Positions 2,060 through 57,269 of a DNA stretch of 64,000 bases are shown piece after piece. The translations under genes were made by a program, and so were the position numbers. Source of the stretch: Thermoanaerobacter kivui (GTDB lineage Bacteria; Bacillota; Thermoanaerobacteria; Thermoanaerobacterales; Thermoanaerobacteraceae); NCBI RefSeq assembly GCF_000763575.1, contig NZ_CP009170.1:397501-461500 (forward strand), in the 5' to 3' direction. Every line of letters begins with the position of its first letter. Positions within the stretch are counted from its first letter, which is position 1. The notes beneath the pieces were generated by a model. It was not told the DNA's origin. It did no database searches and was given only the letters and a program-made list of their open reading frames with translations.

Positions 2060-3505
2060 CCCCTGTTTTCTTAGTACCGAAAGCAGGGGCTGTATATATC
2101 TGGATAAAATTTTCTTTAAAACTCCAAATAATGAATAAAGTTTTGAAATGTCAAAGGGCCCTTTGCCCTTCCTCCATAACCATAAGGCCATTTTCTTTAA
2201 ATTCATGGCAGCAAAAACAAGCATCGCTTGCATGGACAATTTTTCCTTCCCTCTTAACGTCGTCCATCGCAAACCATGCTTCTCCTTTAAATCTGCAAAT
2301 ACTCTCTCTATTGTCTCTTTCCTTCTCTCATATACTTCTTTACAGTAAGGTGTATGCCTTAGGTGTTCTGCTTCTTCTACATATCCTTCCCATATGTGCC
2401 TGAATATCCTCTTTGTGTAGTCTTTACTTTGGGTACACTTTTCTCTTAGAGGACAGTTTTTACATTTTTCTGGGTTTGATTTGTATTCTCTATATCCTTC
2501 TCTGTTGGTTGTAACATATGTTAATATTTCATTCTGCGGGCATATGTAACAGTCATAGTATTCATCATAAACAAATTCATGTTTTTTCATGAAACCATCT
2601 TTTGTTTTTGGCCTTGTATACGGCACTGATGGTATTATTTGTCTATCAAATATTGTCTTTAATATGTACGGATTTTTATAGCCTGCGTCTACTGCTATTG
2701 CTTTCGGTTTTCTTACCCTCTTTTCAACTTCTTCTAATACTTCTTGAAACATCACACTGTCGTGTACATTTGCAGCTTCAACTTTTACTCCTAATACAAA
2801 TCCGTTTTTATCGCAGGCTGTGTGAAAAGAATATGCAAAGATTTTTTCTTTTCCGTTTTTGTTTAACATTCCGCTATCCGGGTCTGTTTTGCTTACTTTC
2901 ACTTCTTTCGTCTTTATCTTCTTGATTTTCTTTAATGGCTTTTTGCCATGAGCCTCTCTATCCTTGTTTATTTCTTCTTCTAGTTTTTCTTGATAAGTCC
3001 TGGCTTCTTTTTCTACTATTTCTTTGGTGTATTTCTTCTTGTTGGCACTTGCTTTTACATGGGTTGAATCTATGAATACTTCCTCTGCATTTACTAGCCC
3101 ATGTTTTATTGCTTCTTCTAAAATTTTCGTAAATATTTTTTCAAATATATCCGTCCCCTTGAATCTTCTTATGTAGTTCTGACTAAATGTTGAAAAATGA
3201 GGTATTTCTTCTGTCAGCCCATACCCTAAAAACCATCTATACGCTACATTTGTTTTTATTTCTGCTATTGTCCTCCTCATCGATGGTATACCAAAAAGAT
3301 ATTGAATGAAAAGTATTTTTATGAGTACTACTGGGTCTATGCTTGGTCTGCCGTGATCTTCGGAATATTTCTCTTTTACTAAATCATATATGAAACTAAA
3401 ATCTATAACTCTTTCTATCTTCCTTAAAAGGTGATCTTTTGGAACTAACTGATCTATGCTTACAAATTCTATTTGATGTCTGGCATCCTGTTTCTTTGAT
3501 AACAT
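2012..3505 (-). CDS. IS1182-family transposase
   Basis: This 497-residue DDE-type transposase starts at 3505 with an AGGAGAGGAG site upstream. The N-terminal part (about 15-110) has the DHLLRKIE and GRPSIDPVVLIKILFIQYLFG region and the FLGYGLTEEIPHFSTFSQNY block typical of IS1182/IS5-like enzymes. The catalytic core includes FIDSTHVKA (about 145), AVDAGYKNPY (about 275) and, after a cysteine-rich stretch near 315-365, the HGLRWTTLRG region with the last acidic residue in the preceding ERVFADLKEKHG helix. The gene has no stop inside the element: it reads through the left inverted repeat and borrows a stop at 2012-2014 from the host gene, so its last residues are host-encoded. It appears intact and could be active. 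Confidence 0.85.
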   Translation of the reverse strand: MLSKKQDARHQIEFVSIDQLVPKDHLLRKIERVIDFSFIYDLVKEKYSEDHGRPSIDPVVLIKILFIQYLFGIPSMRRTIAEIKTNVAYRWFLGYGLTEEIPHFSTFSQNYIRRFKGTDIFEKIFTKILEEAIKHGLVNAEEVFIDSTHVKASANKKKYTKEIVEKEARTYQEKLEEEINKDREAHGKKPLKKIKKIKTKEVKVSKTDPDSGMLNKNGKEKIFAYSFHTACDKNGFVLGVKVEAANVHDSVMFQEVLEEVEKRVRKPKAIAVDAGYKNPYILKTIFDRQIIPSVPYTRPKTKDGFMKKHEFVYDEYYDCYICPQNEILTYVTTNREGYREYKSNPEKCKNCPLREKCTQSKDYTKRIFRHIWEGYVEEAEHLRHTPYCKEVYERRKETIERVFADLKEKHGLRWTTLRGKEKLSMQAMLVFAAMNLKKMALWLWRKGKGPFDISKLYSLFGVLKKILSRYIQPLLSVLRKQGLKFCFVNKLLHFSIF

Positions 3506-53421: not shown

Positions 53422-53775
53422 TTACATATTTACTGGTTTATTGTTTTCATCTACAAATATTACTTTGGGCTTGTAATTTTTGGCTTCCTCATCCTCCATT
53501 ATTGCATAGGATATTATGATGATTATATCGGCTATCTGACATAGTCTTGCTGCTGCGCCGTTTATACATATTGTACCTGAGCCTCTTTCGCCTTCTATTG
53601 CGTAAGTGTCAAATCGTGCACCGTTGTTAATGTTTAAAACTTGTACTTTTTCATTTGGCAGTATATTAGCAAGTTCCATTAAATTTTTATCAATTGTTAT
53701 AGAACCCTGGTAATTTAAGTTGGACTCTGTTACAATTGCTCTGTGTATTTTAGATTTCATCATAAACCTTTGCAT
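53422..53775 (-). CDS. panD: aspartate 1-decarboxylase
   Basis: This pyruvoyl enzyme makes beta-alanine for pantothenate. The start is ATG 53775 ([13 protein letters not shown]), overlapping the panC stop by one base (TAATG) with a G-run upstream. The 117-residue chain has the self-cleavage site YQGSIT with Gly24-Ser25, which yields the pyruvoyl group on the alpha chain, plus [21 protein letters not shown] and GDLVIIISYA-like [10 protein letters not shown]. The length is a little under the family's usual 125. Last gene of the operon. Confidence 0.93.
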
Positions 53776-54626
53776 TATATATTTCCCCCCCACAATAGAT
53801 TATCTATAAGCCTTGTTGTCCCAATAAAGCAAGCTATTGCAATAAGTGCTTTATCTTTTATATAAGTTAAGTCTTCTAATGTATCAGGATGAACGCAGGA
53901 GACATATTGCACTTTGCATAAAGGCTCTGAGTTTAAGACTTCATTTACTTTTTTTATTATAGTATTAGCATTTCTTTCGCCATTTAGAAGTAATTTTTCA
54001 GCTTCTTTTAAAGATTTCGAAAGTATTAAAGCTGCTTTTCTTTCTTCAGGATTTAAATAGACATTTCTTGAACTCATTGCTAAACCATCAACTTCTCTTA
54101 CAATAGGCGCTTTGATTATTTCTACAGGGAAATTTAAGTCTTCCACCATTTTCTTTATTACTGCAACTTGTTGGGCGTCTTTTTGTCCGAAAACTGCGAT
54201 GTCAGGTGTGAAAATGTTAAATAATTTTGCCACAACTGTTGTGACGCCTTTAAAATGACCGGGCCTGAAAGCTCCACAAAGTTTATCAGTGATTTTATCT
54301 ACATTTACTGTTGTGAGAAGTTCAGAAGGATACATTTCGTGTACAGAAGGAGCAAAAACAAGGTCACATCCTTCTTTACCAAGAAGTTTTAAATCCCTTT
54401 TCAAGTCTCGAGGATATCTATCAAAGTCTTCATTAGGTCCGAATTGAATTGGATTTACAAATATGCTTACAGCTACAAAATTTGAATGCTTTTTTGCAAT
54501 TCTTACGAGGGACAAATGGCCTTCGTGCAAATATCCCATTGTAGGTACAAGTCCAATTTTTTTACCTGACAATTTTTGTTCTTTAATTATATTTCTTACA
54601 TCACTAATTTTATCTGTTACTATCAT
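53775..54626 (-). CDS. panC: pantothenate synthetase
   Basis: The 283-residue enzyme condenses pantoate and beta-alanine using ATP. Motifs: [17 protein letters not shown] (the HIGH-type ATP site, about 26-42), [20 protein letters not shown] (about 55-74), [27 protein letters not shown] (cited by FGQKDAQQ, about 145), and [14 protein letters not shown] (the KMSKS-like loop, about 180). Complete; overlaps panB by four bases and panD by one. Confidence 0.95.
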
Positions 54627-55447
54627 TTATTCTCCCTCTTTTCTAAAGTAAAAGAATGTTCTTCATCTGGAAACAAACCTTGTTGTACTTCTTTAATGTA
54701 GGCATTTATGCCCTCTATCATTATTTTTTCAATATCTGCGTATTGTTTTACAAATTTAGGCCTATGACCTTGTGTTATACCTAACATGTCATGGGTGACG
54801 AGGATTTGGCCATCGCAGTAAGGACCTGCTCCTATTCCAATAGTTGGAACTGAAATATTTTCTGTAATGTCTTTTGCAGGCTCCATTGGGATGCTTTCAA
54901 GCACCAGGGCACATATGCCAGCTTGTTCTAATACTTTTGCATCGTTAAAAATTTTTTTGGCTTTCTCTTTTTCTTTGCCTTGGACTTTATATCCTCCCAA
55001 TTGATGTACTGATTGAGGAGTAAGTCCGAGATGGCCTACCACCGGTATTCCTGCATCTACTATGGCTTTGACTATGGAAGCTATTTCTTCTCCACCCTCC
55101 AACTTTACGGCGTGAGCTCCGCCTTCTGCAATAAGCCTTGCAGCATTTGTCATAGCCTGTTCTTTTGATATGTGATATGACATAAAAGGCATGTCGGCAA
55201 CTACAAAGGCACGATTTACTGCCCTTGAAACGGCTTTTGTGTGATGTATCATGTCCTCCATTGTGACAGGTATTGTGCTTTGGTATCCTAAAACCACCAT
55301 TCCAAGGGAATCTCCTACTAAAATCATGTCAATTCCGCAATTATCGAGGATTTTAGCTGTGGGGAAGTCATAAGCGGTTAAAGCTGTTATTTTTTTGCCC
55401 TCTCTTTTAAATTTTTTTAATGTGAGAGTTGTTACTTTTTTATCCAT
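54623..55447 (-). CDS. panB: 3-methyl-2-oxobutanoate hydroxymethyltransferase
   Basis: The 274-residue TIM-barrel enzyme adds a hydroxymethyl group from methylene-tetrahydrofolate to 2-oxoisovalerate, giving ketopantoate. Motifs: ALTAYDFPTAKIL (about 24), MILVGDSLGMVVLGY (metal Asp, about 44), VADMPFMSYH (metal Asp, about 84), AVKLEGGEE (about 113), GHLGLTPQ and the catalytic LVLESIP Glu (about 181). Complete. It overlaps the upstream gene by eight bases. Confidence 0.95.
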   Translation of the reverse strand: MDKKVTTLTLKKFKREGKKITALTAYDFPTAKILDNCGIDMILVGDSLGMVVLGYQSTIPVTMEDMIHHTKAVSRAVNRAFVVADMPFMSYHISKEQAMTNAARLIAEGGAHAVKLEGGEEIASIVKAIVDAGIPVVGHLGLTPQSVHQLGGYKVQGKEKEKAKKIFNDAKVLEQAGICALVLESIPMEPAKDITENISVPTIGIGAGPYCDGQILVTHDMLGITQGHRPKFVKQYADIEKIMIEGINAYIKEVQQGLFPDEEHSFTLEKRENK

Positions 55448-56297
55448 TTAAAATGCCCTCCAATTCAAAATATTTTTCTTTACTCAAATTTCCTTTTTCA
55501 TAGGATATCTCAAGAGCTAATTTTCCTAAGTTTTTGTAAAGATTTATGAGATTTTGATCTTGTATGTTTTTAAGGTGGAGCTCTACTGTATTTACATCTC
55601 CTCTTGCTATAGGGCCAGTTAAGGCGCCGTTTATTCCTTTTTCTTTTATGTTTTTTAAAGTCCCCTCCATCAAAGGTATTAAAGCATCAGAATATTCTTC
55701 AAAAGGAAAGCCAGATTCTTTTAAAAGAAGTAGGCTGAGTTTTGACAAAGCTACGAGGTAATTTGAGGCTACAACACAAGCAGCGTGATAAAGAGGTTTA
55801 TTTATATTTTCCACAACTATGTATTTGCCTGAGATCTTATTTACAATTTCTTTTCCAATTTTAACTGCTTTTTCACACCCTTCTAAAGTGAAATAGGATT
55901 TTGGGAGAAGTTCTAAAGCTGCATCAAAGGAGGGACATGTCTGAATGGGGTGCATCACCATAATATATCCACCTTCAAGGTTAAGAGGATGTAAAACTTC
56001 TAAGCTTAAAGCTCCGCTCAAATGGCAAAATATTTTCTCTTTTAGCATATCTTTATGTTCAAGTAATTTGTTAACGACATCTGATATGCTACTGTCATTT
56101 GTGCTTATGATGATTACATCAGAATTTTTAAGTAGTTCTTCATAGCAGCTAAAAGCTGTTGTTTTTGTGAGCGTCGCAGACCTTTTAGCTGACTCAAAAC
56201 TCCTGCTTAAAAAACCCGAAACATCGGTGCCGCTTTTTGATAATAAAAAAGCGAGGCTTGTTCCTACAATGCCAGCCCCGACAAATCCAATTTTCAA
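55440..56297 (-). CDS. Rossmann/DUF2520 oxidoreductase, probable PanG-type ketopantoate reductase
   Basis: The 285-residue protein starts with a dinucleotide site IGFVGAGIVGTSLAFLLSKSG (cited by GFVGAGIVGTSLA, about 3-15), continues with ISTNDSSISDVV (about 70), HLSGALSLEVLHPL (about 90), and a C-terminal helical DUF2520 domain from about 140 (PLYHAACVVASNYLVALSKL; GPIARGD near 225). It is the first gene of the pantothenate operon, where no panE is found. PanG, a ketopantoate reductase from Francisella and some Firmicutes, has as far as I recall this same architecture, so ketopantoate reduction is the likely function. The function is inferred from family and position. Confidence 0.65.
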   Translation of the reverse strand: MKIGFVGAGIVGTSLAFLLSKSGTDVSGFLSRSFESAKRSATLTKTTAFSCYEELLKNSDVIIISTNDSSISDVVNKLLEHKDMLKEKIFCHLSGALSLEVLHPLNLEGGYIMVMHPIQTCPSFDAALELLPKSYFTLEGCEKAVKIGKEIVNKISGKYIVVENINKPLYHAACVVASNYLVALSKLSLLLLKESGFPFEEYSDALIPLMEGTLKNIKEKGINGALTGPIARGDVNTVELHLKNIQDQNLINLYKNLGKLALEISYEKGNLSKEKYFELEGILNG

Positions 56298-56334
56298 TAG
56301 TTTTCCCTCCTTTTACATGGGAGACAAACAAAAA

Positions 56335-56413
56335 CCTTCCACCGATGGGAAGGCAATTTCCTCTCCCGTCCCGGTCTTTTGATCCTGGCGGGGCTTTAAG
56401 TAAGCCCTATTGA
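56335..56413 (-). promoter_or_regulatory. pan-motif-like leader RNA with terminator
   Basis: Read on the minus strand, a GGGCTT/AAGCCC hairpin (56391-56407) is followed by a GC-rich stem in which CCCG-CC-A-GG faces CC-G-GG-A-CGGG, i.e. with an unpaired A on each side, and then by CCTTCC/GGAAGG (56335-56353) and TTTTTG. The described pan RNA motif, found upstream of pantothenate genes in several phyla, is a stem with two bulged adenosines. The terminator just ahead of the operon suggests attenuation. Confidence 0.7.
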
Positions 56414-56501
56414 GTTTTTAAAATTAAGTGTATGGTTCTGTGAAGATACCATCACTTTTAAAATATCACAACATTTTTATAGAGTCAATAAAGGGGAAAT
56501 A

Positions 56502-57269
56502 CTATTCTTCCAGCTTTTTTGCAAAAATTAAATATCCTGTGTGACCTACCATCAGGTCTTCTGGTCTTAACCTTTGAGGGATTAATTTATATTTTCTAAG
56601 CATAATTTCACTAACTTCTGAAATATAAAACCCATTTTTTTCAAGTGCAGCCAAACTTTCAGATACTTGATTTGTAGTGGGAACTAATATTCCTAAGTGT
56701 CCTGCAGGTTTTAGTGCTTTTCTTACTTCTTCTAAAACTTCCCATGGTTTTCTAACATCTAGGAAAAATGCGTCCAAATCTCTTTCTTTGATTCCATAAT
56801 TTATAGATTTATTGTACATTATGACATTGTCAAATTCCGAAAATTCGCTGAGATTTTTTTGTGCAAGCTTATAAAATTCTTCTCTTTGTTCATATGTATA
56901 TACTCTTCCATAAGGTCCCACAGCGCGAGAGAGGTATACAGTGAAAGCTCCAGAACCTGTTCCTGCTTCACCTACTCTTTTGCCTGGAAAAATGTCAAGG
57001 CGCATTGCTATGTAAGCTCCCTCTTTTGGATAGACAATTTGTGTTTGGCGCTTTAAGGAGTGCATTATGTAGTCAAAAGTATCGCAGTTAAGCACGTGAT
57101 ATTTTATCCCTTGTACTTCAAAGCTATTGCCGGGTTTTATTTGGGACAAAAAATCTGTATCAATTTGACCTTTTGGCAGTCCTATTTTAGAGGGAGAGGA
57201 TAGATCGACTACTTTTTTAAAATTATCTGGCCCTATTATTACGCGTTTTGTAGTTATTCGTGATTCCAC
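56502..57269 (-). CDS. trmI: tRNA (adenine-58-N1)-methyltransferase
   Basis: The 255-residue enzyme methylates A58 in the T-loop, which stabilises tRNA at high temperature. It starts with GTG 57269 (AAAGGGGGAAC upstream). An N-terminal beta domain (to about 75) is followed by a Rossmann methyltransferase: YIAMRLDIFPGKRVGEAGTGSGAFTVYLSRAVG (cited by VGEAGTGSGAFT, the SAM loop, about 108), VYTYEQREEF (acidic SAM contact, about 133), DAFFLDVRKPW (about 172) and LVPTTNQV (about 205). Length and order match TrmI. Monocistronic. Confidence 0.88.
   Translation of the reverse strand: MESRITTKRVIIGPDNFKKVVDLSSPSKIGLPKGQIDTDFLSQIKPGNSFEVQGIKYHVLNCDTFDYIMHSLKRQTQIVYPKEGAYIAMRLDIFPGKRVGEAGTGSGAFTVYLSRAVGPYGRVYTYEQREEFYKLAQKNLSEFSEFDNVIMYNKSINYGIKERDLDAFFLDVRKPWEVLEEVRKALKPAGHLGILVPTTNQVSESLAALEKNGFYISEVSEIMLRKYKLIPQRLRPEDLMVGHTGYLIFAKKLEE

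Follow-up and report, generated by a model that had tools for sequence, protein, structure and literature searches.

A pan RNA leader with a covarying antiterminator upstream of the Thermoanaerobacter kivui pantothenate operon, a probable feedback attenuator

The pan leader and the operon behind it

The window, i.e., the whole 64,000-nucleotide stretch of Thermoanaerobacter kivui DNA analyzed here, carries on its minus strand a leader placed between a GCD14-like tRNA methyltransferase gene (56502-57269) and a pantothenate operon with the gene order panG(DUF2520)-panB-panC-panD, beyond which lies a leuC/aconitase-like gene. The ketopantoate reductase PanG has been described as a DUF2520 protein in the available text of PMC4572677. 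The features of this region, all on the minus strand, were the following.

53422-53793, minus strand: panD, aspartate decarboxylase (Pfam, 1.1e-53)
53775-54626, minus strand: panC, pantoate-beta-alanine ligase (Pfam, 8.2e-112)
54623-55447, minus strand: panB, ketopantoate hydroxymethyltransferase (Pfam, 6.4e-121)
55440-56297, minus strand: panG-type ketopantoate reductase (Rossmann plus DUF2520), TTG start (Pfam DUF2520, 4.1e-36)
56327-56354, minus strand: predicted intrinsic terminator ahead of the first gene, hairpin 56354-56334 plus T-rich tail (terminator scan of the letters; stepwise fold)
56347-56353, minus strand: CCTTCCC, predicted antiterminator 3′ strand and terminator 5′ arm (stepwise fold; covariation)
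56360-56367, minus strand: switch strand GGGAGAGG, the 3′ base of P2 plus tail, predicted antiterminator 5′ strand (stepwise fold; comparative tests)
56366-56391, minus strand: pan hairpin 2 (P2), bulged A56383 and A56369 (Rfam RF01749; covariation)
56391-56407, minus strand: linker hairpin GGGCTT/AAGCCC between P1 and P2, outside the Rfam consensus structure (fold plus sequence)
56428-56455, minus strand: pan hairpin 1 (P1), bulged A on each side (Rfam RF01749; P1 covariation in relatives)
56460-56488, minus strand: promoter-like site TTGACT-17-TATTTT, TG before the second hexamer (consensus scan)

The single Rfam match in the whole window was to the pan motif (RF01749), at 56455-56362 on the minus strand, with 57.7 bits (E 1.8e-7) against a curated gathering cut-off of 36.2 bits, and it covered positions 1-92 of the 92 of the model. 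Both the match and the fold revealed a pair of tandem hairpins with two bulged As in each, and the folding energy of the leader was 3.4 sd below that of dinucleotide shuffles. A first-pass annotation, made from the letters of this stretch, had proposed a pan-like RNA upstream of the pantothenate operon, composed of a stem with one unpaired A per side followed by an intrinsic terminator. Its assignment to the pan family was borne out by the Rfam score, above chance; the stem is present at 56391-56366 with A56383 and A56369, the terminator hairpin with its T-rich tail at 56354-56334, and the Pfam matches confirmed the operon behind them. The span then given, 56335-56413, does include hairpin 2 and the terminator, but it leaves out hairpin 1 (56455-56428) and takes in the extra linker hairpin (56407-56391). 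Hairpin 1, the antiterminator and a second pan copy in the same genome, all described below, had been missed.

The consensus scan found one promoter-like site where 0.8 would be expected in shuffles, which is near the chance level. If this site is used, transcription would begin close to the first base of the pan motif, a position that is suggestive only.

Occurrence of the family and covariation of its hairpins

Among 101 relatives, pan RNA was detected at E <= 0.1 in 63, being above the cut-off in 55, and among 398 genomes sampled from the phylum it was found in 185 (139 above the cut-off). A pan RNA is also present in the laboratory strain of B. subtilis. The comparative set retrieved for the analyses below comprised 155 pan sites from 138 genomes. 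In an alignment of 38 sequences both hairpins covaried strongly, with 93.4% of cells paired and 131 double-change cells compared with 38.7 in shuffles; double changes were observed in 16 of the 18 pairs, that is, 7 of the 7 counted in P1 and 9 of 11 in P2. The loops varied freely in this alignment, and the stems and the bulged As were the only constant parts.

A switch between antiterminator and terminator

The last strand of P2 and the conserved tail are complementary to the 5′ arm of the terminator, and the pairing between them excludes both the P2 base and the terminator. The last four conserved model positions, which the Rfam consensus draws unpaired, were assigned by the present analysis to this antiterminator. 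In a stepwise fold of the T. kivui leader, P2 was closed at first, the antiterminator GGGAGAGG/CCTTCCC then displaced the P2 base (+16 to +24), and the terminator together with P2 prevailed at +27, with probabilities of 0.99 for the antiterminator and 0.95 for the terminator.

The same arrangement was recovered across the comparative set. A terminator hairpin was placed no more than 60 nt from the pan end in 137 of the 155 sites, and hairpins of -8 kcal or better occurred within 150 nt in 140 of 155, as compared with 35 of 155 shuffles. The duplex of switch strand and cognate terminator arm averaged -7.81 kcal over 125 distinct sites versus -6.52 kcal with swapped arms, a difference reached in 0 of 20000 permutations, and the reversed-arm control gave -6.61 kcal. 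Covariation was assessed with the register fixed by the other positions, one position being held out, in 5000 permutations. Pairing at switch-strand positions 2 and 4 to 8 was above every permutation (0/5000 each), positions 1 and 3 were nearly invariant and hence uninformative, and position 9 was weak (86/5000). For example, the divergent switch strand CTGCC of one site (L016) was matched by GGCAG in its terminator.

The signal persisted after dereplication, in which first gene products were clustered at 50% identity and a single site was retained from each of the 27 clusters: 128 of 215 cells were paired against 101.1 expected (sd 4.7; 0/3000 permutations). In these 27 clusters, positions 7 and 9 were not significant, and three of the four controls were flat, the P1 3′ side being nominally high (48/2000). 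Under equilibrium folding, the antiterminator exceeded 0.5 in only 57% of 137 sites, versus 39% with swapped terminators, and in some leaders (L007, L032) P2 won without any effector. It follows that in many leaders P2 would win, barring kinetically controlled folding or an overestimate of P2 stability by the energy model.

Judged from these comparisons, the predicted antiterminator is exclusive with the terminator and conserved by covariation, as an attenuator would require. Since it also excludes the P2 base, formation of P2 would mean OFF, and a closed P2 is thus taken as the repressed state.

A further TCTCCC lies 3′ of the terminator (within 56326-56304 of the window, minus strand) and could pair with the Shine-Dalgarno (SD) sequence GGAGGGA or with the switch strand. 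Pairing of GTCTCCC with the switch strand in the full-length T. kivui leader was judged irrelevant to attenuation: the site is 3′ of the T tract, and TCTCCC is absent from a leader of the same genus (L006).

Genes behind pan RNAs

A gene of the pantothenate/CoA pathway, or an operon neighbor of one, was found 3′ of the pan RNA in 153 of the 155 sites. Gene names were assigned by BLAST against reference proteins, representatives being checked with Pfam/NCBIfam. The first recognized gene was panG in 92 cases, panB in 19, panC in 15, an ECF S component in nine and a PanS-like gene (SBF family) in six. Rarer first genes were BioY (three), an OPT transporter (three), BirA (two), an amidohydrolase (two, followed by BirA and ecfS), panE (one) and panD (one), and two sites had none. 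The contexts therefore include a PanT-like ECF S component with CoaX, PanS-like-panC-panD, BioY- or BirA-ecfS, and OPT-type II pantothenate kinase. These four contexts were not reported in the literature searched. Two pan sites were present in 17 genomes, and the two nearly always preceded complementary parts of the pathway, such as panB apart from panG-panC-panD, or panG-panB together with ecfS-coaX. In reading these contexts as a regulon, it should be considered that co-transcribed kinase genes may be passengers.

Several of these loci have features of their own. In L063, L123 and L127 (genomes G398, G223 and G338), an OPT-family transporter gene comes first after the pan RNA and a type II pantothenate kinase gene second (271 bits to NCBIfam PRK13317, cut-off 234). 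This arrangement suggests pantothenate, or a CoA precursor related to it, as the substrate that the OPT protein takes up. The idea that these genomes belong to pantetheine users lacking CoaBC was rejected, a DFP/CoaBC match being present in all three. BioY or BirA share a pan RNA with ecfS or ecfS-coaX in L059, L067 and L121 and in L030, L043, L090 and L119, the amidohydrolase coming first in two of them, an arrangement that points to a link between biotin and CoA supply.

Two sites stood apart from the pathway genes. In a member of the same genus (L080, genome G006, about 2770-3388), the pan leader is kept, panGBCD is missing and the leuC/aconitase-like gene adjoins, reflecting either a deletion or an assembly fault. 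The other site (L058, G038:C110:69692-69787) combines a pan match of 54.5 bits and a strong terminator with no recognizable pathway gene within 3 kb, and may be either a relic or a small RNA.

A second pan copy at the panT-coaX locus

The Rfam model found another pan RNA in the T. kivui genome (G000:C1:2033642-2033737, minus strand; 32.6 bits, under the cut-off), whereas a whole-genome search with our own covariance model, R1, found the panG site only. This copy lies directly 5′ of two genes, one encoding an ECF S component and the other the type III pantothenate kinase CoaX. The best solved relative of the S component was chain S of 4rfs (E 2e-11), which we take to be PanT of Lactobacillus brevis; against NCBIfam it gave a weak, sub-cut-off match to the folate family alone. 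From these sequence relationships, its substrate is probably pantothenate, as for PanT.

A panT-coaX locus was matched in 22 of 37 genomes searched, and in all of the 21 strong loci tested R1 identified a pan RNA ending at the SD; of these 21, a single locus (L070, identical with L167) had been among the 38 training sites of R1, and the other 20, some of them close relatives of L070, had not. Similarly, pan RNA was found in 12 of 13 loci from named taxa, including those of Thermoanaerobacter wiegelii, T. thermocopriae, Caldanaerobacter subterraneus and Thermoanaerobacterium. GGAGG or a variant occupied a fixed place after hairpin 2 (the P2 tail) in 20 of 20 aligned leaders. The panT-coaX copies of the genus were under the cut-off and had an SD instead of a terminator. 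In three genomes without a panB match (G003, G004 and G021), the pan RNA was kept on ecfS.

This position suggests that panT-coaX may be controlled at the SD, at the level of translation. SD pairing in the panT-coaX leaders was not above that of shuffled leaders (0.64 vs 0.66; higher in 8 of 19), so sequestration of the SD by simple base pairing was left unsupported. Some panT-coaX leaders have an alternative pairing between the two 5′ strands. At three sites (L139, L143 and L145), ecfS stands behind a pan RNA with GGGAGG but with no ATG, GTG or TTG at the usual distance, where an AUU/AUA-like start is possible.

Proposed mechanism and nature of the signal

Taken together, the pan leader is probably a transcription attenuator that provides end-product feedback at the level of CoA. 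RNA polymerase would first produce both bulged hairpins. At a low CoA-level signal, the base of P2 would open, and its 3′ strand and tail GGGAGAGG would pair with CCTTCCC, thereby blocking the terminator and allowing transcription of panG-panB-panC-panD. At a high signal, P2 would be kept closed by a bound effector, leaving CCTTCCC free, so that the terminator forms and transcription stops. The second copy, on the ribosome-binding site of panT-coaX, would extend the same control to uptake and phosphorylation.

The signal would be CoA or a late intermediate of its synthesis. The putative targets comprise synthesis, import of pantoate or pantothenate and two kinds of pantothenate kinase, and a product formed after the kinase step fits them best; moreover, a sensor of pantothenate would repress the kinase just when pantothenate, its substrate, abounds. 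As for what reads the signal, two forms of this explanation were considered, and we lean towards an effector protein rather than the metabolite itself.

In the protein-mediated form, to which we assign about even confidence, the two bulged hairpins would be paired sites for a dimeric RNA-binding protein; CoA (or pantothenate) status would be read by this protein itself, and the switch-strand logic would be the same. Such a protein was suggested from the simple, dimeric arrangement of the motif in the available text of Weinberg 2010 (PMC2864571), and it agrees with loops that are free to vary while constancy is limited to the stems and bulged As. The panT leaders, where the motif abuts the SD without enriched SD pairing, would likewise suit a bound block. 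Against this, no candidate protein was found among the two examined, PanB and CoaX. PanB cannot be the sole sensor, since the RNA persists in the three genomes that lack a panB match, and for CoaX there is a genome (G079) with a pan RNA and no CoaX match. CoaX was rejected as a trans-acting regulator: it occurs in 62 of 63 pan-bearing genomes compared with 68 of 80 without detected pan RNA, mostly a base rate, the latter set (which includes G096, a genome with no pan match) having been defined by stricter filters that missed panT-type copies such as those of G003 and G004.

Direct recognition by the RNA, with the tandem hairpins together binding CoA, dephospho-CoA or 4′-phosphopantetheine and so closing P2, is the other form and is put forward tentatively. 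Genes spanning the route to CoA, kinases and importers included, would be apt targets, and CoA is listed among the conspicuously missing riboswitch ligands in the available text of reviews from the Breaker group. Few conserved unpaired bases and no conserved loops were seen, though, and no ligand was reported in the literature searched for a family known since 2010. It is doubtful that the pan RNA is the missing CoA riboswitch in the full sense, i.e., one whose two hairpins jointly bind CoA or 4′-phosphopantetheine free of protein and shut down vitamin B5 synthesis together with its import and phosphorylation, via terminators at most sites and via the ribosome-binding site at panT-coaX.

Sensing of a precursor (pantothenate, pantoate, ketoisovalerate or beta-alanine) through the same attenuator appears rather unlikely. 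The majority of the targets make pantothenate, as it would predict, but they also include kinases and genomes without panB, and a pantothenate sensor would repress the consumption of pantothenate itself. Finally, a plain unregulated attenuator, in which hairpins and terminator fix the readthrough, would account for a stable terminator ahead of the operon, but it is highly improbable given that a covarying antiterminator and strict gene association across the phylum need selection for switching.

Relation to known systems

Mutually exclusive aptamer-base, antiterminator and terminator helices are shared with TPP and FMN riboswitches, transcription attenuators that exchange antiterminator and terminator and are OFF on their end product. 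The sensory part of pan differs in consisting of two small bulged hairpins, and its sensor may be a protein as well as the RNA itself. Leaders bound by PyrR or ribosomal proteins have small hairpin binding sites and favor the terminator when bound, as is predicted for pan; we know of no cognate protein for pan, unlike PyrR-type leaders.

The available text of Weinberg 2010 (PMC2864571) describes pan as a proposed dimeric protein-binding motif, a tandem of hairpins that each bear two bulged As and lie upstream of panB, panC or panD, a structure shared by the present leader. The genes named in its pan passage are limited to panB, panC and aspartate decarboxylase, and no expression platform is given there; the last four conserved bases, unpaired in Rfam, belong here to the antiterminator. 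The view of the first-pass annotation that the ligand is not established fits that proposal and the absence of a later ligand in the literature searched. In the available parts of transcriptome papers, the motif is already listed upstream of panB operons of Paenibacillus riograndensis, Bacillus methanolicus and B. amyloliquefaciens. It is not mentioned in the available text of an RNA-regulon survey (PMC3766115), and the riboswitch list in that of PMC6593275 holds TPP, FMN, THF and B12 only. CoA riboswitches are not known, according to the portions of the Breaker-group reviews consulted. Two things go beyond the known motif, namely the covarying antiterminator and the wider regulon; neither an antiterminator nor targets beyond panB, panC and panD operons were stated in the literature searched, mainly open-access papers without their supplements.

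Implications

The conserved antiterminator supplies a defined readout and polarity, so that candidate effectors would be testable in a one-tube termination assay on the leader of T. kivui itself. The wider regulon, extending to importers, kinases, pantoate uptake and biotin genes, reduces the probable signals to CoA or a late intermediate. It may also give clues to the function of the OPT transporters whose genes adjoin those of type II pantothenate kinases.
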